DNA from: Streptomyces sp. NBC_01465 | GTDB lineage: Bacteria > Actinomycetota > Actinomycetes > Streptomycetales > Streptomycetaceae | Reading direction: 5' to 3' | DNA: 64,000 nt | NCBI RefSeq assembly: GCF_036227325.1 | Contig: NZ_CP109467.1 | Coordinates: 4,030,001-4,094,000, forward strand | Shown: piece after piece, positions 7,095 through 62,192 of the stretch | How positions within the stretch are numbered: position 1 is the first letter of the stretch | Layout of the letters: each line of letters starts with the position of its first letter | The notes under the pieces: model-generated | Seen by the model: only the letters and a program-made list of their open reading frames with translations | The model's database searches: none | Told to the model about the DNA's origin: nothing | Position numbers and translations under genes: made by a program

Positions 7095-7849
7095 CGCGCC
7101 AGCGACCCCGCGTCCCCCATCACCACCACCGGCTTCTTCGACGGGTCGAGCCAGCGCAGGAGCTCCTTCATGCGGGGCTCTGCCAGGGCGACGCAGCCAT
7201 GGGTCGGGCCGCCGTGTTCCACGTGAAACCAGACGCCACCCCCTCGCGAGGCGCCCATCGGGCGTGTCCAGTCGAGCGGGGTGGTTCCTGGTTTCCGGTT
7301 GTAGTTGATCGCCACCACGTAGTCGAACGAGCCCGCCAGGGACTCTCCGTGGAAGCCGGTCCCGTGCGCCACGAAGGCGGGTCCCCTGTCGTACGGGAGC
7401 CGGGTGCCCGGGTTGGCCCGGCGGCCTCCCGCATCCGTGAGCGTGAAGACGCCCGTCGGGGAGTGCAGGTCGCCCGCGTGGTGGTCCTCCGACCAGCCGC
7501 GCAGGGCGTTGTGGGCCTGCCAGGGGCCGGAGTCCGGGGACCAGCCGCCCTTCGCGTCGCGTACGTACAGGGTGACCGAGGAGCGGTTGGAGTCCGCTGA
7601 CTCGCCCGTCACCACGACCACTTGGCGGGCCGTGGCCGGGATCCGGTCGCGCGTCTTGGCTCCCAGGGACGGTATCTCGCGCGGCAGTTGGGGCTCAGGG
7701 GCCGAGCGGCCCGCGTGGCCGGCAGCCGCGGAGATCGTGCTGGGCGACGACGCGGGGGGTGCGGGGGTTTTGGTGCCGCAGGCCGCGGTCAGGAGCAGGC
7801 CGGTGGTCAGGAGTACGGCGGCGGTCGCCGTCCGGGGGCGGCGGTTCAT
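7091..7849 (-). CDS. L,D-transpeptidase (YkuD) family lipoprotein
   Basis: 252 aa. A lipoprotein signal ends at a lipobox (LLLTAACGT, Cys about residue 25), then a Pro/Ser linker and a YkuD-type domain. The catalytic motif appears as HGGPTHGCVAL, with the nucleophile Cys near residue 218. The family forms 3-3 peptide crosslinks in peptidoglycan or attaches proteins to it, outside the membrane. The start ATG 7849 overlaps the stop of the upstream gene (ATGA, 7849-7846), so it is the third gene of the sigma factor operon. Codons for FHVEH (7215-7230) coincide with a parS-like site. Substrate is unknown. Confidence 0.85.
   Translation of the reverse strand: MNRRPRTATAAVLLTTGLLLTAACGTKTPAPPASSPSTISAAAGHAGRSAPEPQLPREIPSLGAKTRDRIPATARQVVVVTGESADSNRSSVTLYVRDAKGGWSPDSGPWQAHNALRGWSEDHHAGDLHSPTGVFTLTDAGGRRANPGTRLPYDRGPAFVAHGTGFHGESLAGSFDYVVAINYNRKPGTTPLDWTRPMGASRGGGVWFHVEHGGPTHGCVALAEPRMKELLRWLDPSKKPVVVMGDAGSLAR
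7215..7230 (+). other. parS-like ParB-binding site 1
   Basis: TGTTCCACGTGAAACC matches the bacterial parS consensus TGTTNCACGTGAAACA at all but the last base. It lies inside the L,D-transpeptidase coding region. The same 16-mer occurs on the other strand at 56908-56923. Confidence 0.75.
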
Positions 7850-8514
7850 GGTGCTGCTCTCTTGGGTGTGGGGGCCGAGGTGGGGCCCGGGAAGAGTGCC
7901 TCCGCGACAGCAGAGCGGACGTCGGCGACCAGCCGGGGCGCCGGGCCCGCGACACAGAGTTCGACGATGACGGTCTTGGCCGCGGAGGGGCTGCCGATCA
8001 GGCCCGAGTACGACGTGGTGCCGCCTTGGATCCTGCACTGCCTCGACACCGTCAGCGATGCGGACAGGGAGGGCGGGGTGGTGACCTTGGAGTTCAGGGT
8101 CTTGCTGTTTTCGAGGGTCAGGCTGAGCAGCCCGCCCCCGGATTCCAGCGTGCGCACCGGGAGGGGCTGGGAGGCCGCGACGGTCGTGCCCCCCGACACC
8201 CCCGTGTGCCAGCCGTTGGGGAGCGCGAGGGACAGCCCCTCGATCCGCGGGAAGTACATCTCGGTGTACGAGGACGACGGCGCCTGCGTGACGGGGGCCG
8301 CCGGGAGCACGGCAGTGTGCTCGGTGGGCAGCAGCGTCACGGTTACTGCCGCGGCGGCCGCGGCGAGGGCCGCCCCGCCGGCCGCCCGGCGGGCGCGACG
8401 GCGCACCATCCGTTTCCGTACGGAGGTGAGTCGGTCCGGTGGGGCGGGGAGTTGGGGGACGGTGCGCTCCAGGAGGACGCGCAGCTCGTTCTCGTACGGG
8501 GCCTCGTCAGTCAT
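7846..8514 (-). CDS. membrane protein in SigE-family sigma operon, possible anti-sigma factor
   Basis: 222 aa. A basic cytoplasmic N-terminus (about 1-45, RKRMVRRRARR) is followed by one membrane helix (AAGGAALAAAAAAVTVTLLP, about 45-64) and a 155-residue extracellular part without a family I recognise. The gene overlaps the sigma factor gene by 8 nt and the L,D-transpeptidase gene by 4 nt. The one-helix topology and position directly after an ECF sigma factor suggest an anti-sigma factor or sigma-associated membrane protein. No zinc-binding HxxxCxxC motif of the common ZAS class is present. Start is ATG 8514. Confidence 0.65.
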   Translation of the reverse strand: MTDEAPYENELRVLLERTVPQLPAPPDRLTSVRKRMVRRRARRAAGGAALAAAAAAVTVTLLPTEHTAVLPAAPVTQAPSSSYTEMYFPRIEGLSLALPNGWHTGVSGGTTVAASQPLPVRTLESGGGLLSLTLENSKTLNSKVTTPPSLSASLTVSRQCRIQGGTTSYSGLIGSPSAAKTVIVELCVAGPAPRLVADVRSAVAEALFPGPTSAPTPKRAAP

Positions 8515-9007
8515 GGAGCTCCTCCGCCCGGGCGGGGAGCGCGGTCCGCAGCGTACGCAGCGCCTTGGACGCCTGGCTCTTGACCGTGCCGGGCGCGCAG
8601 CCCAGCGTGGCCGCCGTCTCCTCGACGCTCAGGTCCTCGAAGTAACGCAGCACGATCACCGCGCGCTGGCGGGCGGGCAGGGAGCGGATCGCGGCGGCGA
8701 GGGACTGCTCCAGGTCGACGTCCGCGTACGGGTCGGCCGCCCCCGCGCTCTCCGGCAGTTCGCCCGTCGGCACCTCGCCGCGCCAGTGTCTGCGCCACCA
8801 GGAGGTGTGCGTGGTCACGAGGACCTTGCGGATGTACGCCTCGGGGTGGTCCTGCGCGATCCGCGCCCACTTCGGCCACACCTTGGCGAGCGCGGTCTGC
8901 AGCAGGTCCTCCGCGAGATGCGCGTCGCCCGTCAGCAGCCAGGCCGTCCGCAGCAGCCGGGGTCCCCGGGCGGCGACGAACTCCTCGAAGTCGCCGCCAC
9001 TCACCAT
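8507..9007 (-). CDS. SigE-family (ECF-type) RNA polymerase sigma factor
   Basis: 166 aa, a two-domain sigma factor that redirects RNA polymerase. Region 2 is at about residues 6-75 (FEEFVAARGPRLLRTAWLLT, then AEDLLQTALAKVW). Region 4 is at about 105-155 (LPARQRAVIVLRYFEDLSVE, then the HTH AATLGCAPGTVKSQASKAL). This is the actinobacterial SigE family often called by the 'SigE family' model. It is first in an operon with a membrane protein (8-nt overlap) and an L,D-transpeptidase lipoprotein, which points to a cell-envelope response. Start is ATG 9007 (a GTG one codon later is possible). Confidence 0.9.
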   Translation of the reverse strand: MVSGGDFEEFVAARGPRLLRTAWLLTGDAHLAEDLLQTALAKVWPKWARIAQDHPEAYIRKVLVTTHTSWWRRHWRGEVPTGELPESAGAADPYADVDLEQSLAAAIRSLPARQRAVIVLRYFEDLSVEETAATLGCAPGTVKSQASKALRTLRTALPARAEELHD

Positions 9008-9096
9008 GTCCTCGCCGTCCTGTCCGGTCTCCCACGCCTGTGGAACGCGGTGGGGTGCCGTTCAGGTTGCCCGCGATCTGCCGCGACATGGAAGAA

Positions 9097-9126
9097 GGCC
9101 CCCGGGACCTTTCGGTTCCGGGGGCC
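9097..9126 (-). terminator. terminator of the dioxygenase gene
   Basis: Arms 9097-9109 (GGCCCCCGGGACC) and 9114-9126 pair with a single G-U and a TTTC loop. It lies 21 nt after the dioxygenase stop and before the sigma factor start, all on the minus strand. Confidence 0.8.
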
Positions 9127-9147
9127 GCTCCCGCGGGGGGAGTGAGG

Positions 9148-10107
9148 TCAGGAGGCGGTGGGCGAGGCGGTGGCCGTCACCCAGTCCTCGCCGTCCTGGG
9201 TGTCGTCCGGGTCGACGCCGACCGTGATGGAGGCCTGGACTCCGCGGGCGATCCTGTCCTTGCGGTAGTGCAGCTTGAGCAGGCCGCCGGTGACGCCGCT
9301 CTGGTCGTAGATCGTGTCCTCGGTGAGGGTGGTGCGCTCGGCGGTGTTCGTCGAGTACGGGGAGACCTCGGCGGAGGCCAGCACGGACTCCTCGGAGAAG
9401 AAGAACTGGCCGGTGTGGCAGGTGTGCCCGCCCTCGTAACCGGCGTCGGTCATCTTCCCGCCGACGTGCACCTTGGCGTGGATGTGCACGGCGCGGCCGC
9501 GGTACCAGCCGGGGAAGATCGTCTTGAACTCGACGAGGCCGTCCCGGTCGGTGAGCCACGTGCCGCGCAGATAGCGGTTCTCGTCGGTGGGGTCGGTCTT
9601 CCCGCCGCCCCCGCCGCCCGGACCGCCGGAGGGCGGGGTGCCGGTCGGGGTGCCGGTCGGGGTGCCGGTGGGCGCGTCGGTGGGGGCTCCGCTCGGGGGC
9701 GTACCGCCGCCACCGCCGCCGCCCTGGGAGGCTTCCTCGTAACCCGAGTAGATGCCGGTCGCGTCGCAGTGCCAGATGTCGACGGCCGCGCGCTTCAGCG
9801 GGCGGCAGGTCTCCGAGTCGATCACCTTGATACGGAGCGAGAAGGGGATGCCCGGCTTGTCCTCGGTGACGTCCCGGCGGATCTTGTCGGCGTCGATGTA
9901 GTACGGGCCCTCGGTCGTCTCCGAGGTGAGCTCGAGGCACTCCTCGCGCGGGGCGCCCGGCTTCTTCTTCCCGGGCTCCGGGGAGGCGGACGCGGTGGTG
10001 GCGATCGCACCGCCGATCCCCACGGCGGCAACCGCCGCGCCACCTGCGACGACGGCCCGACGGCGCGTCATATCCCTTTTGTGTGCGGGTACTTGGGCTT
10101 CAGTCAT
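9148..10107 (-). CDS. secreted intradiol ring-cleavage dioxygenase with low-complexity insert
   Basis: 319 aa. A twin-arginine signal (TRRRAVVAGGAAVAAVGIGG, from about residue 14) is followed by an intradiol dioxygenase fold like the protocatechuate 3,4-dioxygenase beta chain. Candidate Fe(III) ligands are visible: Tyr in GIYSGY (about 119), and Tyr and two His in GWYRGRAVHIH (about 200-210). Secreted actinobacterial members cleave catechols and lignin-derived aromatics. An odd Gly/Pro/Thr-rich insert of about 43 residues (126-168; GGGGGGG, then repeated PTGT, then GGGGGGK) interrupts the fold between the ligand Tyr and the next strand. ATG 10107 is used; ATG 10071 would keep only the twin-Arg core. 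Confidence 0.87.
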   Translation of the reverse strand: MTEAQVPAHKRDMTRRRAVVAGGAAVAAVGIGGAIATTASASPEPGKKKPGAPREECLELTSETTEGPYYIDADKIRRDVTEDKPGIPFSLRIKVIDSETCRPLKRAAVDIWHCDATGIYSGYEEASQGGGGGGGTPPSGAPTDAPTGTPTGTPTGTPPSGGPGGGGGGKTDPTDENRYLRGTWLTDRDGLVEFKTIFPGWYRGRAVHIHAKVHVGGKMTDAGYEGGHTCHTGQFFFSEESVLASAEVSPYSTNTAERTTLTEDTIYDQSGVTGGLLKLHYRKDRIARGVQASITVGVDPDDTQDGEDWVTATASPTAS

Positions 10108-10273
10108 GGGGCAGAACGGTAGGGACCCGACCTGTCAGGGACATGAGAGCGGGCTGTGCGTACGCGCGGAACCGCACCTCGCGCGACACCCCTGTTACTG
10201 CGATCAGATGACTGCCGTCTCATACGGAGAGTCGCGTCCCCCCTGCCCAGGACCGGCACCGCACTCTGACCAG

Positions 10274-11899
10274 GTGAGGACAACAGCAAGAATCAGGCGA
10301 GCAGCCCGTGTCTGGGCCACGGCACTGGCCGTGTGGATGGTCTCCACCGCTCCCGCCGGAGCCGTCGAAGCCCCGGACCACACTCCCGCCGCCAGAGCCG
10401 CCACCGGACTTCGCCTGACCCTGGCCGCGCGCGTCTGCGACAGCTACACGGACGTCATGGCCAACCTGCTCAGGGACAACAACATGCAGTCCCTGCGCGA
10501 CCTCGGCAAGGATTCCGTGTACACGTCGGGGGAACCCGTGGCCCCTGCGATCGAGAAGGCCAACGACCCCAACTGCCGCCCCCTGACCGGCTGGCGGTTC
10601 ACGCTGGGGAAGGGCATCAGCAGCGACGTCGACGGGCTGTCCACGGTCGTCCCCAGCGACTCCGGCGTACAGCCCGTCACCGAGGCCTCCACTCCGCTCC
10701 TCGACGACCAGGGCGACCCGACCGGCACGAACCTCCCCGGCGCCGTCACCGTCGCACTCGGCCCCACCGACACCGTCGTCGCCCAGAACAGGCGCCTGCA
10801 GATCCAGGGCGGCACGCCCACCGACCCCCTGAACACCGCCGATCTGGGCAACAAGTACGCCTTCGGGGCGCTGCGCTGCGCCGTCGACAACCAGAAGAAC
10901 GACAACGTCGACCGGGCCGCGTACCCCACCGGCGTCCAGCACGTCTTCTGCTACTACTACACGGTCACGCCGAACCCCGGAGCGGGCACGATCGTCGTCC
11001 GCAAGCAGGTCAGGAACAGCACGGCCGGCCAGATCTTCCACTACGCCGGCAACATCTCGTACACCGCCGACCACACCTTCCCGCTCGACGTGACGGACGG
11101 TTCCCCCGCCGAGATGTCCTTCCGGAGGGCCGCGACCAAGGGGTCGGGCGACGATCCGTGGTCGTTCACGGAGACCGCCGTGCCCGGCTGGACACTGACC
11201 GGACTGGACTGCGCCTCCCAGGACGGCCGCAGTACGAGCACGACGACCGCGGCGGGCAAGGCCACCGTCGACCTGGCCAAGGGGGACACGGTCACCTGCA
11301 CCTACACCAACGCCCCGAGCAGCACCGTCGCCCCGCTGACCCTGCGCAAGCAGACGGAGGGCGGCACCGGCGGCCCGTTCCCGTTCAGCGCCAAGGGTGC
11401 GTCGGGGGTCGTCACCGACTTCGGTACGGCCACGACCGCCTCCGCCGGTACGCCGGTGGCGGCGGGACGGCACGACGTGGACCTCGGTACGCAGACCGTG
11501 ACCGAGCAGCTGCCCGCCGATACGGCCTCCGGCGGCTGGGAGTTCACCCGGGCGGAGTGCGGAGGACGTGAGGCGACGGCCACCCCGGGGGCGAACCGCA
11601 CGGTGTCGTTCCCCGTGGACGTCACCGCGGCCGGGGCCGACTGCACGGTCACCAACACGTTCGTTCCCGCGCCGGCACCCGCGCCCAGCCCGAAGCCGAC
11701 GCCCACCCCGAAGCCGACGCCGCATACGACACCGACGGCAACGCCGGCGCCGTCGCACGCCCCCACCGGCGCGCCCGGCCCCGGAACCTCTCAACTCGCG
11801 GAAACGGGCGGCCACTCCGCCACCGGTACCGCCCTGTTCGCCCTCGTCCTCGTCACCCTCGGCGGCGCATGCGTCGCCATCGGGCGCCGGTTGCGCTGA
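10274..11899 (+). CDS. sortase-anchored surface protein with DUF5979-like repeats
   Basis: 541 aa. The order is: signal peptide (VRTTARIRRAARVWATALAV, cleavage after PAGA); a 200-residue N-terminal domain; two prealbumin/SpaA-like modules (TIVVRKQVRN from about 240, PLTLRKQTEG from about 355); a Pro/Thr/Lys-rich wall-spanning linker (about 465-505); the sorting signal LAETG (about 508); a membrane helix; and an Arg-rich tail. LAxTG is the motif of actinobacterial class E sortases, so the protein is probably linked to peptidoglycan. GTG 10274 was chosen because the signal peptide begins there; an ATG at 10208 would put 22 non-signal residues in front. Ligand and role are unknown. Confidence 0.8.
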   Translation: MRTTARIRRAARVWATALAVWMVSTAPAGAVEAPDHTPAARAATGLRLTLAARVCDSYTDVMANLLRDNNMQSLRDLGKDSVYTSGEPVAPAIEKANDPNCRPLTGWRFTLGKGISSDVDGLSTVVPSDSGVQPVTEASTPLLDDQGDPTGTNLPGAVTVALGPTDTVVAQNRRLQIQGGTPTDPLNTADLGNKYAFGALRCAVDNQKNDNVDRAAYPTGVQHVFCYYYTVTPNPGAGTIVVRKQVRNSTAGQIFHYAGNISYTADHTFPLDVTDGSPAEMSFRRAATKGSGDDPWSFTETAVPGWTLTGLDCASQDGRSTSTTTAAGKATVDLAKGDTVTCTYTNAPSSTVAPLTLRKQTEGGTGGPFPFSAKGASGVVTDFGTATTASAGTPVAAGRHDVDLGTQTVTEQLPADTASGGWEFTRAECGGREATATPGANRTVSFPVDVTAAGADCTVTNTFVPAPAPAPSPKPTPTPKPTPHTTPTATPAPSHAPTGAPGPGTSQLAETGGHSATGTALFALVLVTLGGACVAIGRRLR

Positions 11900-11922
11900 A
11901 GCTGAACCGGCAGCACACATGA

Positions 11923-11963
11923 CGAAGGGGCCCGGAACCGCCGTGCGGTTCCGGGCCCCTTCG
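11923..11963. terminator. bidirectional terminator between surface protein gene and aspS
   Basis: An 18-bp perfect stem (11923-11940 with 11946-11963) and 5-nt loop sits between two convergent stops, 23 nt after one and 10 nt after the other. Confidence 0.88.
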
Positions 11964-11972
11964 CCGTAAGAA

Positions 11973-13739
11973 CTACTTCTCGACCGGCTTGCGCAGCTGG
12001 ATGTTCAGCTCGCGCAGACGCGTCTCGTCGAGGACCGTGGGCGCGCCCATCATCAGGTCCTGCGCGTTGCCGTTGAGCGGGAAGGCGATCGTCTCGCGGA
12101 TGTTCGGCTCGTCCGCGAGGAGCATGACGATGCGGTCCACGCCCGGGGCGATGCCGCCGTGCGGCGGGGCGCCGAGGCGGAAGGCGCGCAGCATGCCCGC
12201 GAACTCCTGCTCCACGGTCTCGCGGTCGTAGCCCGCGATCTCGAAGGCCTTGAGCATCAGCTCGGGCTCGTGGTTGCGGATCGCGCCCGAGGAGAGCTCG
12301 ATGCCGTTGCAGACGATGTCGTACTGGAACGCCAGGATGTCCAGCGGGTCCTTCTCCTCCAGGTCGGCGAGGCCGCCCTGGGGCATCGAGAACGGGTTGT
12401 GCGAGAAGTCGATCTTGCCGGTCTCCTCGTCCTTCTCGTACATCGGGAAGTCGACGATCCAGCAGAAGCGGAAGACGCCCTCCTCGAAGTGGCCGGCGCG
12501 CTTGGCGGCCTCCACGCGGACGCCCGACATGATCTTCGAGACCTCGTCGAACTCGCCCGCGCCGAAGAAGACCGCGTGGCCCGGCTTCAGCTCCAGGCGC
12601 TCGGTCAGCGCCGCGATGTCGTCCTCGGTGAGGAACTTGGCGATCGGTCCGGCCAGCGCGCCGTCGTCGCCGACGCGCACCCAGGCCAGGCCCTTCGCGC
12701 CCAGCGAGACCGCGTAGTCGCCGAGGCCGTCGAAGAACTTCCGGGACTGCGAGGCGGTGTCCGGTACGGGCAGGGCGCGCACGTGCTTGCCCGCGAAGGC
12801 CTTGAAGCCCGAGTCGGCGAAGACGTCCGTGACGTCGACGAGCTCCAGCTTGGCGCGCAGGTCGGGCTTGTCGTTGCCGTACTTCAGCATCGACTCACGG
12901 AACGGGATGCGCGGGAAGGGGGAGGTGACCTCGCGGCCGTTGCCGAACTCGGTGAAGATCTCCGTCATCAGCTTCTCGATCGGCTGGAAGACGTCCTCCT
13001 GCTCGACGAAGCTCATCTCGACGTCGAGCTGGTAGAACTCGCCCGGCGAGCGGTCGGCGCGGGCGTCCTCGTCGCGGAAGCAGGGCGCGATCTGGAAGTA
13101 GCGGTCGAAGCCCGAGATCATCAGCAGCTGCTTGAACTGCTGCGGGGCCTGCGGCAGCGCGTAGAACTTGCCCGGGTTGAGGCGCGAGGGGACCACGAAG
13201 TCGCGGGCGCCCTCGGGGGAGGTCGCCGTGAGGATCGGGGTGGCCATCTCGTTGAAGCCGAGCGCGACCATCTTCGAGCGGATGGACGCGATGACCGAGG
13301 ACCGCAGCATGATGTTGCGGTGCATGCGCTCGCGGCGCAGGTCCAGGAAGCGGTACTCCAGGCGGCGCTCCTCGTTCACGCCGTCCTCGGCGTTGATCGT
13401 GAAGGGCAGCGGGGCGGCCTCGCCGAGGATCTCGACCTCGCCGACCTCGATCTCGACCTCGCCGGTGGGCAGCTCGGAGTTCACGTTGTCCGCGCCGCGG
13501 GCGGAGACCTTGCCGTCGATGCGTACGACGGTCTCCTTGGTCAGCTTCGCCAGGGCCTCGTTGCCGGGGGTGCCGGGACGGGCGACGAGCTGGGTGATCC
13601 CGTAGTGGTCGCGGAGGTCGATGAAGAGGATGCCGCCCAGGTCACGGCGATTGTGCAGCCAGCCGCTCAGCCGGACGTCGCTGCCGACGTCGGAGGCGCG
13701 GAGCTCGCCGCACGTGTGGGACCTGTACCGATGCTGCAT
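11973..13739 (-). CDS. aspS: aspartyl-tRNA synthetase
   Basis: 588 aa, class IIb synthetase that charges tRNA(Asp). The N-terminal OB-fold anticodon-binding domain is at about 15-110 ([20 protein letters not shown]). Motif 2 is [19 protein letters not shown] at about 220-238, and motif 3 [14 protein letters not shown] lies near residue 540. The bacterial GAD insertion domain lies between them. The length is that of bacterial-type AspRS. The leader just upstream carries a tandem 12-bp repeat (13751-13774) and no clear Shine-Dalgarno. It is convergent with the surface protein gene and divergent from the SpoIIE-type phosphatase gene at 13843. Confidence 0.96.
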
Positions 13740-13750
13740 CGTTCATCCAA

Positions 13751-13774
13751 TTCTTCGCGAGATTCTTCGCGAGA
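13751..13774 (-). repeat. tandem 12-bp repeat in the aspS leader
   Basis: TTCTTCGCGAGA occurs twice in direct succession (13751-13762, 13763-13774), starting 12 nt upstream of the aspS start codon. On the coding strand this reads TCTCGCGAAGAA twice. It may be a regulator site or part of a leader structure; no role is known to me. Confidence 0.6.
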
Positions 13775-13842
13775 CAGGCGGGAATCAACCCCCCAAGAGT
13801 ACCGGCCCTGCTCAGTCGCCCCTGTCGGAATAAAGTGGGGCA

Positions 13843-17006: not shown

Positions 17007-17014
17007 ACGCCTGA

Positions 17015-17034: not shown

Positions 17035-17050
17035 CCAGGGTGACAGCGGG

Positions 17051-18013: not shown

Positions 18014-18052
18014 GGTGCCCTCCTTGGCGGGATGCTCAGCTCCCAAAGTAGT

Positions 18053-44798: not shown

Positions 44799-46154
44799 CT
44801 AGGCCCAGGTGATGAGGCGCTTGGGCTGCTCCAGGATGGCCGCCACATCGGCGAGAACCTTGGAGCCGAGCTCGCCGTCGACCAGGCGGTGGTCGAAGGA
44901 GAGCGCCAGGGTGGTGACCTGACGCGGCTTGACCTTGCCCTTGTGGACCCAGGGCTGGAGCTTGATCGCACCGACCGCGAGGATCGCGGACTCGCCCGGG
45001 TTGAGGATGGGCGTACCGGTGTCGATGCCGAAGACACCGACGTTGGTGATGGTGACCGTGCCGCCCTGCATGGCCGCGGGGGACGTCTTGCCCTCGCGTG
45101 CCGTGGAGACCAGCTCGCCGAGCGCGGCGGCCAGTTCGGGCAGCGTCTTGGCGTCCGCGTCCTTGATGTTCGGGACGATCAGACCGCGCGGGGTGGCCGC
45201 GGCGATGCCCAGGTTCACGTAGTGCTTCTGCACGATCTCCTGGTTCGCCTCGTCCCAGGCCGCGTTGACCTCCGGGTTGCGCTTGATCGCGACCAGGAGG
45301 GCCTTGGCGATGAGCAGGAGGGGGTTCACGCGGAGACCCGCGAGCTCCTTGTCCTCCTTCAGCTCGGCGACGAGCTTCATCGTCCGCGTCACATCGAGCG
45401 TGATGAACTCGGTGACGTGCGGCGCGGTGAAGGCCGATCCGACCATCGCCTGGGCGATCGCCTTGCGAACTCCCTTGACGGGAATGCGTGTTTCACGTGA
45501 AACACGCTCCGTGACCGGCGCCTGCTCCACTGCTACGGGAGCCGGCGTCGCGGCGGGCGCGGGCGCTGCCGCGGCGTGCACGTCCGCACGCGTGACGATG
45601 CCGTCGGGCCCGGTGGCCGTGACGGTCGCCAGGTCGATGCCCAGGTCCTTGGCGAGCTTACGCACCGGAGGCTTGGCCAGCGGGCGGTTCGCGGCCGGCG
45701 CACTGCCGTTGGAGTAGTACGTGCCCTCGGGGGCGCTCTCCGTCTCGGGCTGCGCAGGAACGTCCTTACGGGCGCGGCGCTTGGTCGAGGACTCGGAGAC
45801 CCCGTACCCGACGAGGACCGGCTGGCGGCCTGCGGGCTTGGCCTCCGTGGCGGGCTCCGGCACTGCGGCGGCCACCACCGGCTCGGCGGATCCGGGAGCA
45901 ACGTCGACCGCGATGATCACCTGGCCGACGTCGACCGTCGTGCCCTCGGGGAAGCGCAGCTCGTGCACCACACCGTCGAAGGGGATGGGGAGTTCGACGG
46001 CGGCCTTCGCCGTCTCGACCTCGCACACCACCTGGCCGTCGGTCACCGTGTCACCCGGTGCGACGTACCACTTGAGGATCTCCGCCTCGGTCAGTCCCTC
46101 GCCCACGTCGGGCATCTTGAACTCTCGGAAGCGCGTTGGGTTCTGTGTAGTCAT
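44799..46154 (-). CDS. bkdC: branched-chain 2-oxoacid dehydrogenase E2 (dihydrolipoyl acyltransferase)
   Basis: 451 aa. Lipoyl domain at about 8-85 with the modified Lys in CEVETAKAAVELP (about 47), peripheral-subunit-binding domain at about 145-182 (KLAKDLGIDLATVTATGPDG), and a catalytic domain at about 220-450 ending with LSFDHRLVDGELG, which holds the His/Asp pair. It moves the acyl group from E1 to CoA, forming branched-chain starter CoA esters for fatty acids and polyketides. ATG 46154 is used; GTG 46160 is closer to GAGGAG. It is third in the operon. A perfect parS lies in its linker codons (45489-45504). Confidence 0.94.
   Translation of the reverse strand: MTTQNPTRFREFKMPDVGEGLTEAEILKWYVAPGDTVTDGQVVCEVETAKAAVELPIPFDGVVHELRFPEGTTVDVGQVIIAVDVAPGSAEPVVAAAVPEPATEAKPAGRQPVLVGYGVSESSTKRRARKDVPAQPETESAPEGTYYSNGSAPAANRPLAKPPVRKLAKDLGIDLATVTATGPDGIVTRADVHAAAAPAPAATPAPVAVEQAPVTERVSRETRIPVKGVRKAIAQAMVGSAFTAPHVTEFITLDVTRTMKLVAELKEDKELAGLRVNPLLLIAKALLVAIKRNPEVNAAWDEANQEIVQKHYVNLGIAAATPRGLIVPNIKDADAKTLPELAAALGELVSTAREGKTSPAAMQGGTVTITNVGVFGIDTGTPILNPGESAILAVGAIKLQPWVHKGKVKPRQVTTLALSFDHRLVDGELGSKVLADVAAILEQPKRLITWA
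45489..45504 (+). other. parS-like ParB-binding site 2 (perfect)
   Basis: TGTTTCACGTGAAACA matches the Streptomyces parS consensus at all 16 positions, and the palindrome continues to 22 bp (45486-45507). It is in the coding region of E2, in the codons for the segment RVSRETR of an interdomain linker. Confidence 0.88.
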
Positions 46155-46168
46155 GGTCACGGCGCTCC

Positions 46169-52351: not shown

Positions 52352-52616
52352 CAGTCCTCGCCGTCGTTTCGGTCCGCGTCAGCGGGTGGTCCTCAGGTAC
52401 TTTGCCTCGTCACGCTACAGGCTCGGTCTGATGGGCCGGTTCGGGAATGACCGGTCATCAAACCGGTTCTCGCTGTACCCATGCAAATTCTCTGTGCTTT
52501 CTCTTCCCGTACGGTCACGGAACGGGCATCCGGCTTGACGTGTCAGTGCCCTCGGGCAGACTTGCCCGGTACAACGGGAAGATCCGCAGGATCCGCGGCC
52601 AGGGGGATGCACAGTC

Positions 52617-54233: not shown

Positions 54234-54299
54234 CCCACCTGGCCCGCCCCCTGCTCCGCCCGGGATGCCGGACTTCTTCCCGGGTGTGACGCTGGCTGC

Positions 54300-54704: not shown

Positions 54705-54718
54705 CTGCTTGCGCCGAC

Positions 54719-54750
54719 CGACATACTCGGTATACATACTGAGTATGTCG
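54719..54750. promoter_or_regulatory. 32-bp palindrome covering the padR start, likely PadR operator
   Basis: Fourteen of sixteen positions pair about the centre. Outer arms are CGACATACTC (54719-54728) and GAGTATGTCG (54741-54750); the start codon ATG (54745-54747) lies in the right arm. Inner GTATACATAC is also nearly symmetric. Ends with ACAT/ATGT are like known PadR-family sites. Autorepression of the padR-ABC operon is inferred; the transcript would be short-leadered or leaderless. Confidence 0.75.
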
Positions 54751-55374
54751 ATCCGCCACGGGCTCCTCGCCCTCCTCGAGCGGGGCCCTCGATACGGCTC
54801 CCAGCTCCGCAGCGAATTCGAGTCCCGCACCGGTGCCACCTGGCCCCTCAACGTCGGCCAGGTCTATACGACCCTCAGCCGCCTCGAGCGCGACGGGATG
54901 GTCGTGCAGGACGGTGAGGACGCGGCCGGCCATGCGCTGTACGCCATCACCACCGAGGGCCGCCAAGAGCTGAAGAACTGGTACGAGGCGCCCGTCGACC
55001 GCACCAGCCCGGCCCGCGACGAGCTGTCGATCAAGCTCGCGATGGCGGTCGGCGCACCCGGTGTGGACATCCGCGGGGTCATCCAGTCGCAGCGCCACCA
55101 CACCGTGAAGGCGATGCAGGACTACACCCGGCTCAAGTCCCAGGCGCTCACCGCCATCGAGAAGGCCGGGGCGAAGGGGACCCAGGAGCGCGACGACGTG
55201 GCCTGGCTGCTCGTCCTGGAACAGCTGATCTTCCAGACGGAGGCCGAGGCGCGCTGGCTCGACCACTGCGAGGCACGGCTGATCAGGCTCTCGGCGGCGG
55301 TCGTGCCGGGGGCCGAACGTACGACGGCCGCACCAACCGCCGCGGCCCCCGCGCCGCTCACCACCGACCACTGA
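54745..55374 (+). CDS. PadR family transcriptional regulator
   Basis: 209 aa. Winged HTH at about 1-80 (IRHGLLALLERGPRYGSQLR, then GQVYTTLSRLERDGMV) and a C-terminal helical dimerisation region at about 95-180 (PadR subfamily 2, Vir-C). ATG 54745 is used; no ribosome site is visible and the operator palindrome overlaps the start codon, so the mRNA is probably leaderless. It stands first in an operon with an ABC ATPase and FtsX permease, a common arrangement in which the regulator represses its own transporter. The inducer is unknown. Confidence 0.93.
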   Translation: MSIRHGLLALLERGPRYGSQLRSEFESRTGATWPLNVGQVYTTLSRLERDGMVVQDGEDAAGHALYAITTEGRQELKNWYEAPVDRTSPARDELSIKLAMAVGAPGVDIRGVIQSQRHHTVKAMQDYTRLKSQALTAIEKAGAKGTQERDDVAWLLVLEQLIFQTEAEARWLDHCEARLIRLSAAVVPGAERTTAAPTAAAPAPLTTDH

Positions 55375-55420
55375 CCGCATTTCAGACCGTACGTCCGTAC
55401 GCCCAGGGGGGACCCTCACC

Positions 55421-56173
55421 ATGTCCGAACGCCCGACACAGCCGCCGCAGCAGCCGGTGCTGCAGCTCAAGGAACTGACCCGCGTCCACGGCAGCGGCGC
55501 CACCGAGGTGCACGCCCTGCGCGGGATCAACCTCGACGTCTTCCCCGGTGAACTCGTCGCCGTCATGGGCCCGTCGGGCTCCGGGAAGTCCACGCTGCTC
55601 ACCATCGCGGGCGGCCTCGACACCCCGACCTCGGGCCAGGTGATCGTCGAGGGAACCGACATCACCACCTCGGGCCGCAAGGTGCTCGCCGCACTGCGCA
55701 GGCGCTCCATCGGTTACGTCTTCCAGGACTACAACCTCATCCCCGCGCTCACCGCGGCCGAGAACGTCGCCCTGCCGCGCGAGCTCGACGGCGTCTCCGC
55801 CCGCAAGGCCCGTGCCGAGGCCATGGCCTCGCTGGAGGAGATGGACCTGGCGCATCTCGCCGACCGCTTCCCCGACGAGATGTCCGGCGGCCAGCAGCAG
55901 CGCATCGCCATAGCCCGCGCCCTGGTCGGCGACCGCCGACTGGTCCTGGCCGACGAGCCGACCGGCGCGCTGGACTCCGAGACCGGCGAATCCGTACTGG
56001 CCCTGCTGCGCGCCCGCTGCGACGCCGGAGCGGCCGGGGTCCTCGTCACACACGAGCCGCGCTTCGCGGCCTGGGCGGACCGGGTCGTCTTCCTGCGCGA
56101 CGGCGGGGTCGTCGACCAGACCGTACGCAGCGACGCCGAGTCGCTCCTGACCGGCCAGGCGGCCGAACTGTGA
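55421..56173 (+). CDS. ABC transporter ATP-binding protein (MacB/LolD type)
   Basis: 250 aa. Walker A GPSGSGKS (about 50), Q-loop YVFQDYNL, signature MSGGQQQRIAIARA (about 155) and Walker B LVLADEP (about 178), then the H-loop VLVTHEPRFA. The family energises FtsX-fold permeases that act by mechanical coupling (lipoprotein release, peptide export or resistance). ATG 55421 has GGGGGG upstream. The stop overlaps the permease start by 4 nt (GTGA, 56170-56173). Regulated with the permease by PadR, it may act in export or detoxification of antimicrobials. Confidence 0.94.
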   Translation: MSERPTQPPQQPVLQLKELTRVHGSGATEVHALRGINLDVFPGELVAVMGPSGSGKSTLLTIAGGLDTPTSGQVIVEGTDITTSGRKVLAALRRRSIGYVFQDYNLIPALTAAENVALPRELDGVSARKARAEAMASLEEMDLAHLADRFPDEMSGGQQQRIAIARALVGDRRLVLADEPTGALDSETGESVLALLRARCDAGAAGVLVTHEPRFAAWADRVVFLRDGGVVDQTVRSDAESLLTGQAAEL

Positions 56174-59034
56174 GCAACTGGTTCCACTCCTGGCGGGCCG
56201 CGGTCCGCATCGCCCGCCGTGACGCCTGGCGCTACAAGGGCCGCAGCTTCCTGGTCCTCGCCATGATCGCGCTGCCGATCCTCGGGGTGAGCGCCGCCGA
56301 TCTGACCCTGCGCAGCTCCGAGCTCTCCACCGAGCAGAAGGTCGAGCGCTCCCTGGGGCGGGCCGATGCGCGGATCACCGACCCGGGCATGGGCGGCACG
56401 GCCGTCTTCCAGGACCCCGCCGGCGAGCAGAACGCTCCGGCGAAGGACATCAAGGACGGCGAGTCCTGGCCCGAGGGCACGACCGATCTCTCCAAGGTCG
56501 TCCCGGCAGGCGCCAAGACCCTTGAGGACACGACGGCTTCGGGCAAGTTCCGCACCACTCACGGGCTTCTGTACGCCGACATCCGTGAGCTGAAGGCCAC
56601 GGACCCGATGGCCGAGGGCATCATGGACCTCACCGACGGCCGCTTCCCGGAGAGGGCCGGTGAAGTCGCCGCGACGACGCACTTCCTGGACGCCAGCGGG
56701 CTGAAGGTCGGCTCGTCGGTCTCCGCACGCGGCGTGGAAGGCACCAAGTACCTGATCGTCGGTGCGTACGAACTGCCCAACGACCTCAAGGCCGAACAGG
56801 TCAACGCACTTCCCGGCACGTTCATCGACCCGCTCAACAAGGCGCTCGCGGCGGTCGACCTGCCCACGTCGGGCAAGAACACCACTCAACTGGTCACCGT
56901 CACCGGTGGTTTCACGTGGAACATGGTCAAGGAGGCCAACACCAAGGGCGCGATCGTCACGTCGCGCCTGGTGGCCCTCGACCCGCCCGCCGACTCCGAG
57001 GTGCCGCTGTACCAGAAGGGCGGCTGGAGCAACTACGAGCAGAGCACCGCCGCCAAGGCCGCACTGCTCGCGGCCGTCGGCACCATCGTGGGCCTGGCCA
57101 TTCTGGAGATCTGCCTGCTCGCCGGGCCCGCGTTCGCGGTCGGCGCCCGGCGCTCGCGCCGTCAGCTCGGGCTGGTCGGCGCCAACGGCGGTGAGCGCAG
57201 GCACATCCGGGCCATCGTGCTCTCCGGCGGACTCGTGATCGGCATCGCGGCCGCGGTCGTCGGAACGCTCCTCGGCATGCTGCTCACCTTCGCGCTCCAG
57301 CCGCTGCTCGAGGACTACATGGGCAAGCGCTTCGGCAGCTTCGACATCCGCCCGCTGGAGCTCCTGGGCATCGGGCTGCTCGCCGTCTTCACCGGTCTGA
57401 TGGCGGCGATCGTGCCCGCCGTCACCTCGTCCCGGCAGACCGTCCTGGCCTCGCTCACCGGCCGCCGCGGGGTGCGCCGCTCCAGCCGAGTGCTGCCGGT
57501 GATCGGCTTGATCGCGGTCGCTCTGGGTGCCGCGACAGCCCTGTACGGATCCACGATGTCCAGCTCCTCACTGATCGTGGCGGGCGGCAGCGCCGTCGCC
57601 GAACTGGGCATTGTCGCTCTCACCCCCGCCATGGTCGGTCTGTTCGGCCGGGCCGGGCGCATCCTGCCGCTCTCGCCCCGACTGGCGCTGCGCGACGCGG
57701 TACGCAACCGGGGGCGCACGGCCCCCGCGGTCGCCGCGGTGCTGGCCGCCGTCGCGGGCACGGTCGCGGTGGCGACGTACACGGCGAGCACCGAGGCGCA
57801 GCACAAGGCCGAGTACACGGCCGAACTTCCGTACGGCACCGTCTCGGTGTCGACCACGGAGGCCGGCGGGCGCGATGTGCCTCAGGTGCGCAGCACCGTG
57901 CAGAAGGACCTGCCGGTGGACGTGCGGGCCGATGTGGACCGGATCGCCGTGGGGAAGGCGAGCTGCGAGTTGTACAGCGATTCGCCGGGCTGTGGCCGCT
58001 ATGAAGTGGTCACCCCCAAGGCCAACATCTGCCCGCTGTGGGCGCCGTCGGCCGAAGGCGAGGACCCTTCGTCGAAGTACACCGTCGAGGAACGGCGCAA
58101 GCTCGGCAAGGACTGGCGCTGCCTGCAGAACAACGGCGGTGGCATCGAGGTCCAGGACGGGTTGCTGGTCGGCGACGCGAAGCTGATGAAGGTGCTGGGC
58201 ATCAACGACCCGGCGTCCGTGACCGCCCTGTCCCAGGGGCAGATCGTCTCCTTCGACAAGCGCAACATCACCCCTCAGAGCAAGATCGACATTCGGCTGA
58301 TCACCGATCCGAAGGCCGCCGACGCAGCCAGCGCCAAGGGCAAGGACGCACCCGGAGCGATCAAGTCCTTCGCCGCGCACCAGGCTTCGGGATCCCCGAA
58401 GACGTACGGCATCACCATGATCATGCCGCCGTCCGCCGCCAGGGCCGCGGGCCTCGTCACGGTCCCCTACGGTGCGTACTTCACGACGGACAAGATGCCC
58501 AGCAGCGCGCAGCAGCAGCGTCTGGACAGCGACATCGACAAGCTCGGCACCGAGGTCGCCCTGCGCATCGAGAAGGGCTGGACCCCTGAGAGCAGCATCG
58601 TCCTGATCTCCCTGACCGTCTTCGCCGGGCTGATCACGATCGGCGCCGCGGGCATCGCCACCGGTCTCGCCCAGGCGGACGCCGAGGCCGACCTCAAGAC
58701 GCTCGCCGCCGTGGGAGCGGCGCCGCGGGTGCGCCGGACACTCAGCGGGTTCCAGTGCGGGGTGGTGGCCGTGATGGGTGTGGTGCTCGGCTCGGCGGCG
58801 GGCGTACTGCCCGCGATCGGGCTGAGGTTCACCGAGAAGCGCGAGCAGACGGACTTCTACCGGGAGTTGGTCGACCAGGGCTACGGGGCCATGAACCCGG
58901 CCCCGTACGTCCCGGTCGTCGTCCCCTGGGCCACCCTGGCCGCGCTGCTGATCGCCGTCCCGCTGGGCGCGGCCCTGCTGGCGGCCCTGGTCACGCGCTC
59001 GCACGGGGCCCTCGCCCGGCGCGCCGCGGTCTGA
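56170..59034 (+). CDS. FtsX-like ABC transporter permease
   Basis: 954 aa, duplicated FtsX/MacB-type permease. Helix near the N-terminus (FLVLAMIALPILGVSAAD), a large extracellular domain (about 45-290), a first bundle of helices (about 298-425), a second extracellular domain (about 530-800) and the final three helices (about 810-945). It translocates or expels substrates with the preceding ATPase. A parS-like site lies in its coding region (56908-56923). GTG 56170 overlaps the ATPase stop. Substrate unknown; a further FtsX-type permease begins at the left edge of the window. Confidence 0.92.
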   Translation: MSNWFHSWRAAVRIARRDAWRYKGRSFLVLAMIALPILGVSAADLTLRSSELSTEQKVERSLGRADARITDPGMGGTAVFQDPAGEQNAPAKDIKDGESWPEGTTDLSKVVPAGAKTLEDTTASGKFRTTHGLLYADIRELKATDPMAEGIMDLTDGRFPERAGEVAATTHFLDASGLKVGSSVSARGVEGTKYLIVGAYELPNDLKAEQVNALPGTFIDPLNKALAAVDLPTSGKNTTQLVTVTGGFTWNMVKEANTKGAIVTSRLVALDPPADSEVPLYQKGGWSNYEQSTAAKAALLAAVGTIVGLAILEICLLAGPAFAVGARRSRRQLGLVGANGGERRHIRAIVLSGGLVIGIAAAVVGTLLGMLLTFALQPLLEDYMGKRFGSFDIRPLELLGIGLLAVFTGLMAAIVPAVTSSRQTVLASLTGRRGVRRSSRVLPVIGLIAVALGAATALYGSTMSSSSLIVAGGSAVAELGIVALTPAMVGLFGRAGRILPLSPRLALRDAVRNRGRTAPAVAAVLAAVAGTVAVATYTASTEAQHKAEYTAELPYGTVSVSTTEAGGRDVPQVRSTVQKDLPVDVRADVDRIAVGKASCELYSDSPGCGRYEVVTPKANICPLWAPSAEGEDPSSKYTVEERRKLGKDWRCLQNNGGGIEVQDGLLVGDAKLMKVLGINDPASVTALSQGQIVSFDKRNITPQSKIDIRLITDPKAADAASAKGKDAPGAIKSFAAHQASGSPKTYGITMIMPPSAARAAGLVTVPYGAYFTTDKMPSSAQQQRLDSDIDKLGTEVALRIEKGWTPESSIVLISLTVFAGLITIGAAGIATGLAQADAEADLKTLAAVGAAPRVRRTLSGFQCGVVAVMGVVLGSAAGVLPAIGLRFTEKREQTDFYRELVDQGYGAMNPAPYVPVVVPWATLAALLIAVPLGAALLAALVTRSHGALARRAAV
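56908..56923 (-). other. parS-like ParB-binding site 3
   Basis: On the minus strand it reads TGTTCCACGTGAAACC, the same 16-mer as at 7215-7230. It differs from the parS consensus only at the last base and lies inside the FtsX permease coding region. Confidence 0.7.
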
Positions 59035-59051
59035 CCGGAGTCCGGGCCTCC

Positions 59052-59094
59052 TGTGCCCCCGTACGAGGGTGGATCACTCTCGTACGGGGGCACA
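59052..59094 (+). terminator. terminator of the ABC operon
   Basis: A 16-bp perfect stem (59052-59067 with 59079-59094) and 11-nt loop starts 18 nt after the permease stop. Confidence 0.85.
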
Positions 59095-59130
59095 CCGTCA
59101 TGTGAGTCACGTGTACGAGAGAATGACGGC

Positions 59131-59688
59131 ATGGAGATGCCGAGGAGTGAACGGCCGGAACGGTCGCAGGAGCACCCGCAGGTCCTCGTGGTGGGACAGG
59201 ACGGGATGGCGCTCGGCGGCGGCCCCGGCGGCGGTGACGAGGCGCGCGAGGTCCCAGTGACAGAGATGGTCGAACAACCCGCGAAGGTCATGCGCATCGG
59301 CAGCATGATCAAGCAACTGCTCGAGGAAGTCCGTGCGGCTCCTCTCGACGAGGCGAGCCGGGTCCGCCTCAAGAACATCCACGCCAGCTCGGTGAAGGAG
59401 CTGGAGGACGGCCTCGCCCCCGAACTGGTCGAGGAGCTCGAGCGTCTCTCCCTTCCGTTCACCGACGAGGCGATCCCCTCCGAGGCCGAACTGCGCATCG
59501 CGCAGGCCCAGTTGGTGGGCTGGCTGGAGGGCCTCTTCCACGGCATCCAGACCGCGCTGTTCGCCCAGCAGATGGCCGCCAGGGCCCAGCTGGAGCAGAT
59601 GCGCCGCGCGCTCCCGCCGGGTGCGGGCGGCCACGACGACGAGGACGACGACGGCCACGGTGCCGTCCGCTCGGGCCCGTACCTCTAG
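59131..59688 (+). CDS. bpa: bacterial proteasome activator Bpa/PafE
   Basis: 185 aa, the four-helix-bundle proteasome activator of actinobacteria that forms a dodecameric ring and opens the 20S gate without ATP. Helical core at about 45-160 (KVMRIGSMIKQLLEEVRAAP, LEDGLAPELVEELERLSLPF). The C-terminus ends in GPYL, the HbYX-type motif that docks to the proteasome alpha ring; Tyr is second to last. A His/Asp-rich stretch (GHDDEDDDGH) precedes it. ATG 59131 is used (59137 is possible). The stop codon lies in the end of a transposon-like element that follows (59685-59927). Confidence 0.9.
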   Translation: MEMPRSERPERSQEHPQVLVVGQDGMALGGGPGGGDEAREVPVTEMVEQPAKVMRIGSMIKQLLEEVRAAPLDEASRVRLKNIHASSVKELEDGLAPELVEELERLSLPFTDEAIPSEAELRIAQAQLVGWLEGLFHGIQTALFAQQMAARAQLEQMRRALPPGAGGHDDEDDDGHGAVRSGPYL

Positions 59689-59927
59689 GGGGTGTCCGGC
59701 GGATCATGCCGCAGTCGCGCCGGCCCGGCACGCACATCTGCCGCGTTGTCGTCAGTTGCCAACGCTCCGCGTTGTCGCCTTCCTCCGCCTTGCAGCTGCG
59801 CTCGGCATCCGAAGGATGAATCAAAGAGCCGAGACGGAGCGAAGCGCAGTGCACCGGACCACCGCTCACCCGCGGTAAAGGCTTCAACGCAGAGCAAGGG
59901 CGACCCGATCCGCCGGACACCCCCTAG
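59685..59927. mobile_element. 235-bp MITE-like element with CTAG target duplication
   Basis: Perfect 17-bp terminal inverted repeats (GGGGTGTCCGGCGGATC at 59689-59705; complement at 59907-59923) are flanked on both sides by CTAG (59685-59688, 59924-59927), as expected of a 4-bp target duplication. The interior has no gene; CGCGTTGTCG occurs twice (59738 and 59768). CTAG targets are typical of IS5-group elements, and similar sequence is, from memory, dispersed in Streptomyces genomes. The left CTAG supplies the last base pairs of the bpa stop codon. The element would need a transposase from elsewhere. Confidence 0.75.
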
Positions 59928-60002
59928 AACCGCCGACCGGGCGGGGCGATCACCGGGCGCTGCCCCGTTCCCCCCGCCCGCTCAGCGCCGCATACTCACC
60001 GG

Positions 60003-60857
60003 ATGACCACCTACGACGCCGTCGTCCTCGCAGGCGGGGCGGCCAGACGGCTCGGCGGAGCCGACAAGCCAGGGCTGACCGTCGGCGGCCGCGCCCTGCT
60101 CGACCGTGTGCTGGCCGCCTGTGCGGGAGCGGCGTCGACCGTCGTGGTCGGCGGCCGGCGCACCACGTCGCGTCCCGTCACCTGGGTACGCGAAGACCCG
60201 CCCGGCGGCGGCCCGTTGGCCGCGCTGGACGCCGGCGTCCGCGCCACCCGCGCCGACCGGATCCTCGTCCTCTCCGCGGACCTGCCCTTCCTCGACGGGC
60301 GGAGCGTGGCGGCGCTGCTCTCCGCACTCGCCGACGGCAGCCACGAAGCCGCCCTCCTCACCGACGCGGGCGGCCGCGACCAGCCCCTCGTCGCCGTCTA
60401 CCGCGCCGAGCCGCTCCGCCGTGAACTGGCCCTGCTCGCCTCCGAACACGGCGCGCTCACCGGTCTGCCCCTCCGACTGCTCACCGCCGAACTCGACCTC
60501 GCCCGAATCGCCGCCGACCCGGCCCGGCCCCTCGCGTCGTTCGACTGCGACACCTGGGAGGACATCGCCGCGGCAAGGGCCCGCATCAGGGAGCATGGAC
60601 ACGTGCTGGATGAATGGATCACCGCAGTCAAGGCCGAACTCGGCATCGAGCTCGACGTCGACACCGGCGTCCTCCTCGACCTGGCCCGCGACGCCGCACA
60701 CGGTGTCGCCCGGCCTGCCGCTCCACTGACCACCTTCTTGGTGGGGTACGCGGCGGCGAAGGCCGAGAAGGACGGCCCCGAGGCCGTCGCCGAGGCGGCC
60801 CGCAAGGCCGCGGCCCTCGCCAACCAGTGGGCCGCAGAGGCGAACGAGGCCGGATGA
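60003..60857 (+). CDS. MobA-like nucleotidyltransferase fused to DUF6457
   Basis: 284 aa. N-terminal GT-A nucleotidyltransferase of MobA/IspD type at about 3-190: VVLAGGAARRLGGADKPGL is the nucleotide-binding loop, and DLPFLDG the metal Asp region (LSADLPF). MobA adds GMP to molybdopterin. The C-terminal 85 residues (about 198-280, LDEWITAVKAELGIELDVDT) are a DUF6457 module common in actinobacteria as separate or fused protein. ATG 60003. The stop overlaps the moeA start by 4 nt (ATGA), so the pair is translationally coupled. A role in molybdenum cofactor synthesis is well supported by that neighbour. Confidence 0.88.
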   Translation: MTTYDAVVLAGGAARRLGGADKPGLTVGGRALLDRVLAACAGAASTVVVGGRRTTSRPVTWVREDPPGGGPLAALDAGVRATRADRILVLSADLPFLDGRSVAALLSALADGSHEAALLTDAGGRDQPLVAVYRAEPLRRELALLASEHGALTGLPLRLLTAELDLARIAADPARPLASFDCDTWEDIAAARARIREHGHVLDEWITAVKAELGIELDVDTGVLLDLARDAAHGVARPAAPLTTFLVGYAAAKAEKDGPEAVAEAARKAAALANQWAAEANEAG

Positions 60858-62188
60858 GCGAGACGCACGGCCCCGAGGACACCGACGTCGACGAGGCCCT
60901 CGCGCTCGTCAACACGGTGCCGCCGCCCACCGTCCCGCAGGCCGCGGGACCCGCCCTCCCGCAGCCGTCCCCGCCCGTACGCCACCGGGCCACACCCTGG
61001 CCCGAAGCACGCGCCCGCGCCGCACAGGCCGGCCGCAGCGCCCCCGTACGGACCCGGCGCACCCCCCTCGACGACGCGCTCGGTCAGATCCTCGCCGAGC
61101 CCCTCACCGCCCTCACCGACCTGCCGTCCTTCGACACCTCGGCGATGGACGGCTGGGTCGTGGCGGGACCGGGGCCCTGGCGGATCCGGCAGGACAGCAT
61201 CCTCGCCGGACGCGCCGCGCCCGACCCGCTGGCCGACGGGGAGGCCGTACGCATCGCCACCGGCGCCCGGATCCCGGCCGACGCCACCGCCGTCATCCGC
61301 TCCGAACACGCCCGCACCGACGGGGCCGGGCGCCAGCTGTCCGCCGGGCGCGAGGTCGTACCCGGCCAGGACATCCGCCCGCGCGGCCAGGAGTGCCGCT
61401 CCGGCGACCATCTGCTGCCCGCCGCCTCGCTGGTGACCCCCGCCGTGCTCGGCCTCGCCGCGGCCGCCGGTTACGACACGCTGCTCACCGTCCCCCGCCC
61501 CACCGTCGAAGTCCTCGTCCTGGGCGACGAGTTGCTGACCGAAGGGCTGCCGCACGACGGGCTGATCCGCGACGCCCTGGGCCCGATGATCGGCCCCTGG
61601 CTGCGCTCCCTCGGTGCGGAGGTCGTCGCCACGCGCCGTCTCGGCGACGACCCCGGCGCGCTCTACGAGGCCGTCACCACCTCCGGGGCCGATCTGGTCG
61701 TCACCACCGGCGGCACCGCTTCGGGCCCCGTCGACCATGTCCACCCGACCCTGCGGAAGGCCGGCGCCGAACTGCTCGTCGACGGTGTCGCAGTCCGCCC
61801 CGGCCATCCGATGCTGCTGGCGCGGCTGGCCCCCGGGCGCCACCTCGTGGGTCTGCCGGGGAATCCCCTCGCCGCCGTCTCCGGACTCCTCACGCTGGCC
61901 GCGCCCCTGCTGCGTACGCTCTCCGGCCGCGAAGCCCAGGCGCCGGCAGATTCTTTTTTCTATGGCTCCGCCGTGCGCGACGAGGTGCAGGGGCACCCGT
62001 ACGACACCCGGCTCGTGCCCGTCGTGCACCACGGCGACGAGGCCGTGCCGCTGCACTTCAACGGGCCCGCGATGCTCCGCGGGATCGCCGCCGCCGACGG
62101 ACTCGCCGTCGTCCCGCCGGGCGGTGCCCTGGCCGGTCAGGAGCTGGACGTCATCGATCTGCCGTGGGCCGGGGAGTGTTTCACGTGA
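60854..62188 (+). CDS. moeA: molybdopterin molybdenumtransferase MoeA
   Basis: 444 aa. A Pro/Ala-rich N-terminal extension (about 1-60) precedes the MoeA core: LTDLPSFDTSAMDGWVVAG (about 90-108, catalytic Asp region), VRIATGARIPADATAV, and the MoaB-like domain at about 215-350 with DLVVTTGGTASGPVDHVHP. MoeA inserts molybdate into adenylated molybdopterin. The N-terminal extension is longer than in E. coli MoeA. ATG 60854 overlaps the previous stop; its own stop overlaps the start of the K+ channel gene (GTGA at 62185-62188), within a parS-like site. Confidence 0.92.
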   Translation: MSETHGPEDTDVDEALALVNTVPPPTVPQAAGPALPQPSPPVRHRATPWPEARARAAQAGRSAPVRTRRTPLDDALGQILAEPLTALTDLPSFDTSAMDGWVVAGPGPWRIRQDSILAGRAAPDPLADGEAVRIATGARIPADATAVIRSEHARTDGAGRQLSAGREVVPGQDIRPRGQECRSGDHLLPAASLVTPAVLGLAAAAGYDTLLTVPRPTVEVLVLGDELLTEGLPHDGLIRDALGPMIGPWLRSLGAEVVATRRLGDDPGALYEAVTTSGADLVVTTGGTASGPVDHVHPTLRKAGAELLVDGVAVRPGHPMLLARLAPGRHLVGLPGNPLAAVSGLLTLAAPLLRTLSGREAQAPADSFFYGSAVRDEVQGHPYDTRLVPVVHHGDEAVPLHFNGPAMLRGIAAADGLAVVPPGGALAGQELDVIDLPWAGECFT

Positions 62189-62192
62189 AACT
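62177..62192 (+). other. parS-like ParB-binding site 4 at a gene junction
   Basis: TGTTTCACGTGAAACT matches the parS consensus at 15 of 16 positions. It contains both the stop of moeA (TGA, 62186-62188) and the GTG start (62185-62187) of the next gene. Confidence 0.82.

Follow-up and report, generated by a model that had tools for sequence, protein, structure and literature searches.

Four parS sequences within genes and at a stop/start junction in the outer left part of the oriC cluster of Streptomyces sp. NBC_01465

For the chromosome segregation system ParABS, the loading of ParB with cytidine triphosphate (CTP), its spreading, and the recruitment of SMC and ParA are established (PMC12511625). 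As far as the excerpts of the published accounts cited here go, Streptomyces coelicolor has 23 central parS sites and one near a chromosome end, S. venezuelae has 16 (PMC4852455), and for 20 closed streptomycete genomes a mean of 22.8 sites, a range of 11-65, and a share of 79.86% to the right of oriC have been given (PMC8743542). In S. venezuelae, ParB binding to the same consensus near oriC was proven by chromatin immunoprecipitation sequencing (ChIP-seq; PMC4852455, PMC12511625), and the same method revealed spreading over 2.5-3 kb from parS (PMC12511625). Sites inside genes have also been described, i.e., one of the ten parS of Corynebacterium glutamicum lies within trpCF (PMC7083940), and one parS of Mycobacterium bovis BCG lies within parA (PMC2346475). 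Chromosomal parS, their clustering near oriC, and their presence in coding regions are thus already known. Reading frames and start or stop codons in parS are not discussed in the excerpts of the accounts of the Streptomyces cluster, and no paper on stop or start codons inside parS was found among literature listings and abstract beginnings, which does not prove novelty in print. Here, four parS sequences are described that lie in a stretch of 64,000 nucleotides of the chromosome of Streptomyces sp. NBC_01465, and their relation to the genes that contain them was analyzed.

The stretch, called the window in the following, comprises positions 4,030,001-4,094,000 of a single contig of 9,138,776 bp (NZ_CP109467.1); seven-digit positions refer to the contig, smaller ones to the window. 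It was scanned on both strands with TGTTNCACGTGAAACA, allowing up to three mismatches, and 100 dinucleotide shuffles served as control. Matches were found at exactly four places, which give eight rows because each palindrome is matched on both strands, versus on average 0.39 and at most 2 rows in the shuffled sequences. With N counted as a match, site A (7215-7230, minus strand) agrees with the pattern at 15 positions, site B (45489-45504) at 16, site C (56908-56923, plus strand, with the pattern match on the minus strand) at 15, and site D (62177-62192, plus strand) at 15. This confirms the four 16-mers listed in an initial annotation, and also its statement that the window contains no other comparable match. 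As it had likewise claimed, all four sites lie within coding DNA or at a gene junction.

The whole genome was searched with the core GTTTCACGTGAAAC, allowing up to two mismatches, and the reversed pattern was used as control. The core was found at 21 places, i.e., 16 exact copies of GTTTCACGTGAAAC, three copies of the variant GTTTCACGTGGAAC, and two places with two mismatches, and the reversed pattern yielded 2 rows per strand. Of the 19 cores with no or one mismatch, 18, namely all 16 exact cores and two of the three GTTTCACGTGGAAC variants, lie within 317 kb (3,891,448-4,208,101) or 3.5% of the chromosome, so that the distribution is not even; the third variant is found far from this cluster at 8,335,765. 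The cluster is centred on dnaN-oriC-dnaA-parAB, and all four genes lie inside its span: dnaN and dnaA flank the region that is densest in DnaA-like boxes (4,143,378-4,144,203), and parA and parB follow next at about 4.150-4.152 Mb. According to their Pfam domains, the genome encodes a cognate ParB (ParB_N, HTH_ParB, ParB_C) and a ParA-type protein (AAA_31). The consensus, the clustering at oriC, and the number of sites, with 18 in the cluster and one outlier, are like those in the excerpts on other Streptomyces.

Sequence and clustering around oriC and parAB therefore support the identification of the four window sequences as parS. The probability that they are chance matches is practically negligible, because this is contradicted by the clustering and by the conservation of sites C and D described below, and a chance origin was rejected on the shuffles and the reversed-pattern control. 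It is also extremely improbable that the palindrome is the operator of a DNA-binding protein other than ParB, since it is identical with the proven parS consensus of other Streptomyces, and oriC and parAB mark the centre of the cluster.

The distances from oriC are -106.6 kb for site A, -68.3 kb for site B, -56.9 kb for site C, and -51.6 kb for site D. Eight of the 18 cluster sites lie to the left of oriC and ten to the right, a weaker right bias than in the 20 streptomycete genomes mentioned above (79.86%, as excerpted; PMC8743542), and the densest stretch extends from -4 to +21 kb. With its sites between -107 and -52 kb from oriC, the window represents the outer left flank of this zone and not its densest core. 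The initial annotation had placed the window in the ParB-bound core, which is not fully correct, and the site positions rule out that the whole window is a dense ParB core. At a spreading distance of 3 kb, the S. venezuelae value, the predicted ParB coverage of the window is 34.5% at most.

Judged from the sequences, it is highly probable that all four are working chromosomal parS sites in the outer left part of the oriC cluster, which load ParB and are selected as palindromes. We infer that ParB binds here and that the selection is for segregation. ParB with CTP would load at each palindrome and close into a clamp, the clamp would slide a few kilobases, and the origin region would be linked to ParA and SMC. 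Selection would act on the DNA palindrome, and genes would carry parS where they can. Two reading frames pass through the canonical core without a stop and encode VSRET and FHVK, and the third frame ends in TGA, which would be either avoided by a TGG form or used as a true stop. Site B would be carried in a protein linker in the VSRET frame, site A in a motif that was already near parS, and site C in the third frame with the TGG form; at site D, a stop/start junction, the centre of parS would serve as both codons. parS thus appears to constrain codons and residues at these sites, a case in which a chromosome segregation signal goes together with codons, residues, and gene boundaries. The four cores are unchanged in the sister genome G381, which has about 90% DNA identity to the source genome, and of the other codons for identical residues 20-25% differ between the two genomes in the genes with sites A-C and 12% in the gene with site D.

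Site D (TGTTTCACGTGAAACT, one mismatch) connects a MoeA-like gene (open frame 60614-62188, plus strand; Pfam MoeA_N) with an ion-channel gene (62185-63270, plus strand; Pfam TrkA_N and Ion_trans_2), and it is directly preceded by the Shine-Dalgarno-like run GGGGAG (62171-62176, plus strand). Over TGTTTCACGTGAAACT the MoeA-like frame ends with TGT TTC ACG TGA and the channel frame opens with GTG AAA CTT, i.e., the GTG at 62185-62187 starts the channel gene and the TGA at 62186-62188 ends the MoeA-like gene, both within parS. Four-base GTGA stop/start overlaps are typical of coupled genes; site D uses GTGA likewise, and here it is also the centre of the parS palindrome. The true start of the MoeA-like gene is probably further inside the open frame, because Pfam MoeA_N begins at residue 132.

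The conservation of site D was analyzed in 121 genomes of the genus. A homologue of the channel is present at E <= 1e-100 in 115 of them, each of which contributed one locus; three second, partial matches were left out. Ninety-four loci could be aligned to the first residues and were judged, and 21 were too distant or badly anchored. The parS core is located exactly on the GTG start of the channel gene in 83 of the 94 loci and not in 11; a parS nearby occurs in one of these 11 (L211) and in one locus that could not be anchored (L200). In 72 of the 83 loci an upstream frame with an LPW/LDL-type MoeA-like ending stops at the TGA of parS, and in the others the upstream frame is open without this motif (nine loci) or closed (two loci). 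The second channel codon is AAA in all 83 loci, as the core demands. Among the lysine codons further in, counted over up to 150 codons of the same loci, 70 of 319 are AAA and 249 are AAG, and nine of the 11 loci without site D have AAG at codon 2. At this site the DNA is hence conserved beyond the need of the protein. When 96 proteins were arranged in a tree, the rows labelled as lacking site D, 13 in number, required three changes, and 11 of them fell into one group. A family-wide sample, which shares three genomes with the first, showed site D in 17 of the 19 loci of the genus whose alignment reached the start, and the exceptions were one locus with one base different (L254) and one without the site (L260). 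In other genera no parS was found in any of eight loci, only one of which (L272) aligned to the channel start.

A second parS on a start codon opens cydDC (TIGR02857, TIGR02868) at 4,208,099 (L023:14099). The core occupies this position in 29 of 30 cydDC loci (L275-L304, the 30 best of 120 genomes with a match), the exception being L302 with one T missing from the core, and 15 of the 30 loci contain a further parS 32-54 bases upstream. A start of cydDC at the ATG at the edge of the site is unlikely, as relatives have GTG, CTG (L278, L283), or ACG (L291) there, and because of this variation the central GTG seems to be the better start, short of proof. Among 18 sites, 0.017 start-codon overlaps would be expected, and the probability of at least two is about 1e-4, a rough value that assumes genes spaced at 1,050 bases and was calculated after the result had been seen.

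The exact placement on start codons (83 of 94 loci for site D, 29 of 30 for cydDC) would also be compatible with gene control, i.e., these two sites might be kept mainly because ParB or the RNA hairpin of the palindrome tunes the transcription or translation of the channel gene and cydDC. According to excerpts of the respective accounts, ParB of Pseudomonas aeruginosa acts as a repressor of two genes whose parS is intergenic (PMC7022226), and for the parS within parA of M. bovis a block of transcription or translation has been suggested (PMC2346475). In addition, the D start region of the source genome (62165-62204) can form an RNA hairpin of -20.1 kcal/mol that includes the Shine-Dalgarno-like run and exceeds in strength the mean of the 83 loci with the site. 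However, the gene does not need parS. The 83 loci with the site are purine-rich at positions -14 to -9 and have a Shine-Dalgarno-like word in 62 cases (77 if GGGT is counted), yet all 11 loci without it also keep a start-like GTG and such a word, showing that the channel start is independent of parS. Also the mean folding energies of the start region are alike, -10.65 kcal/mol in the 83 loci with and -10.90 kcal/mol in those without parS, and a role of RNA structure for site D was rejected on this ground. Gene control as the main reason is unlikely, and it would not conflict with a role in segregation. Similarly doubtful is the more specific idea that the parS centre is a translation signal and that ParB loading ties the expression of the channel and the CydDC exporter to segregation during sporulation. 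The two conserved start-codon sites lend themselves to the questions of an effect of ParB loading on expression, and of whether segregation depends on the position of a site or on the number of sites alone.

Site C is a GTTTCACGTGGAAC variant with one mismatch and lies in an FtsX-type permease gene (56170-59034, plus strand; PF02687, 29.6 bits, cut-off 25.5). The frame reads GGT TTC ACG TGG AAC, with TGG at the place where the canonical core gives TGA, and therefore only the GTGGAAC form fits inside the gene. An intact site occurs in 27 of 30 loci (L117-L146, including that of the source genome), with relatives that are 56-73% identical in protein. Sixteen homologues of greater distance, from 15 loci, lack it, three further listed rows being left out. 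In the 30-row alignment the glycine codon GGT at residue 247 (usage 11%) is used for 26 of 29 glycines, and the threonine codon ACG at residue 249 (usage 33%) is present in 28 of 30 rows. Their codon excess ranks 2 and 7 among 525 columns, and the rank was taken as a fair measure because all columns of the alignment share one ancestry; the other codons of the site are near-forced and uninformative in this respect. As for site D, the codons are conserved beyond the need of the protein. A protein-driven origin, in which sites C and A would resemble parS only because conserved residues are by coincidence encoded by such a sequence, would fit the observation that both, and also the outlier at 8,335,765, have the one-mismatch form. 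Nevertheless it is very improbable: the two unusual codons are kept at site C, phenylalanine and asparagine occur in 27 of 27 sequences with the site versus 3 of 19 and 1 of 19, respectively, without it, and at site A all 29 relatives conserve aspartate, not glutamate. Elsewhere in the FtsX-type gene, codons 516-517 (57715-57720) read CGT ACG and are kept in 24 and 30 of 30 rows, respectively.

Site A, with the core GTTTCACGTGGAAC on the minus strand and one mismatch, is part of an L,D-transpeptidase (YkuD) gene (7091-7849, minus strand; PF03734, 35.2 bits, cut-off 23.4), where TTT CAC GTG GAA CAC encodes FHVEH. None of the 29 relatives in a first sample has the site at this place, and all of them read HVDH. 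A second sample of 30 close loci, which overlaps with the first, showed HVEH and the site in the source genome and in G381, HVDH without the site in 27 loci, and one unreadable locus. Eleven of the 29 relatives of the first sample have a different parS, 0.8-1.9 kb upstream and next to a hairpin that by eye is terminator-like; in the source genome the best other match within the 4 kb surrounding site A has five mismatches. Site A may have moved.

Site B is an exact 16-bp parS in the gene for a 2-oxoacid dehydrogenase E2 acyltransferase (44799-46160, minus strand; PF00198, PF00364, PF02817). It is located in the linker between the E3_binding and the catalytic domain, and GTT TCA CGT GAA ACA is read as VSRET. 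The site was absent from this place in all 29 relatives of a first sample (the 30 best of 91 genomes, including the source genome). Of 80 named relatives of the gene (79 with the title Streptomyces, one with Kitasatospora), 78 were suitable for scoring. The site does not occur at that position in any of these, nor does a serine before RET, and the preceding residue is alanine in 65, valine in six, glycine in five, and threonine in two. Again, the sister G381 has the site. Six of the 80 loci (L307, L322, L325, L332, L336, L341) contain a different parS in the same linker, 48-51 bases upstream, which encodes VSRETTPA and thus uses the same frame, so that the E2 linker took up parS at least twice. 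Like the parS in coding DNA of C. glutamicum and M. bovis BCG, as known from excerpts, the sites described here lie inside genes; in addition, the effects of the frame were traced, i.e., the VSRET linker, the TGG form in the stop frame, and the conserved stop/start junction.

All four sites are parS by sequence, but they are not equivalent: sites C and D are old and sites A and B recent, and old parS sites can be distinguished from recent ones in this way. Sites A and B were not found outside this genome and G381, and their residues (HVEH instead of HVDH; SRETR) were not seen in other relatives. Together with the site-linked residues at C and the start and stop codons at D, this agrees with the claim of the initial annotation that the protein sequence is shaped by the site. 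Conservation of codons beyond the need of the protein, for which a test had also been proposed, was observed at C (ranks 2 and 7 of 525) and D (AAA in 83 of 83 loci); the cores of A and B are the same in one sister and absent at that place from the other relatives read. Several observations weigh against working parS sites that are selected as palindromes. Nearly all relatives lack sites A and B, which are therefore dispensable, and site D is missing from one group of relatives. Ranks 1 and 3 of the 525 columns of gene C are codons 516-517, which are outside parS, so that codon conservation in this gene has other causes, too. Last, the variant at 8,335,765 (L025), which lies in an ABC permease gene (BPD_transp_1), is also kept in G381, indicating that GTTTCACGTGGAAC can occur away from oriC; this core is perhaps protein-driven.

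Three more sites of the cluster read VSRET; they lie in the open frame of parA, in that of parB, and in that of one gene without Pfam match. Perfect palindromes, terminator-like by eye, are centred on the cores at 3,891,448 (40 bp), 4,164,481 (38 bp), and 4,177,685 (34 bp). At 4,188,600 (L022) a parS coincides with a possible ATG start (MFHVKP) of a gene for 176 amino acids without Pfam match, and no Shine-Dalgarno sequence was seen there. The number of cores was about twice as high in the genome G404, which has 35 forward parS core rows, many of them in close tandem, versus 14-18 in five other relatives searched.

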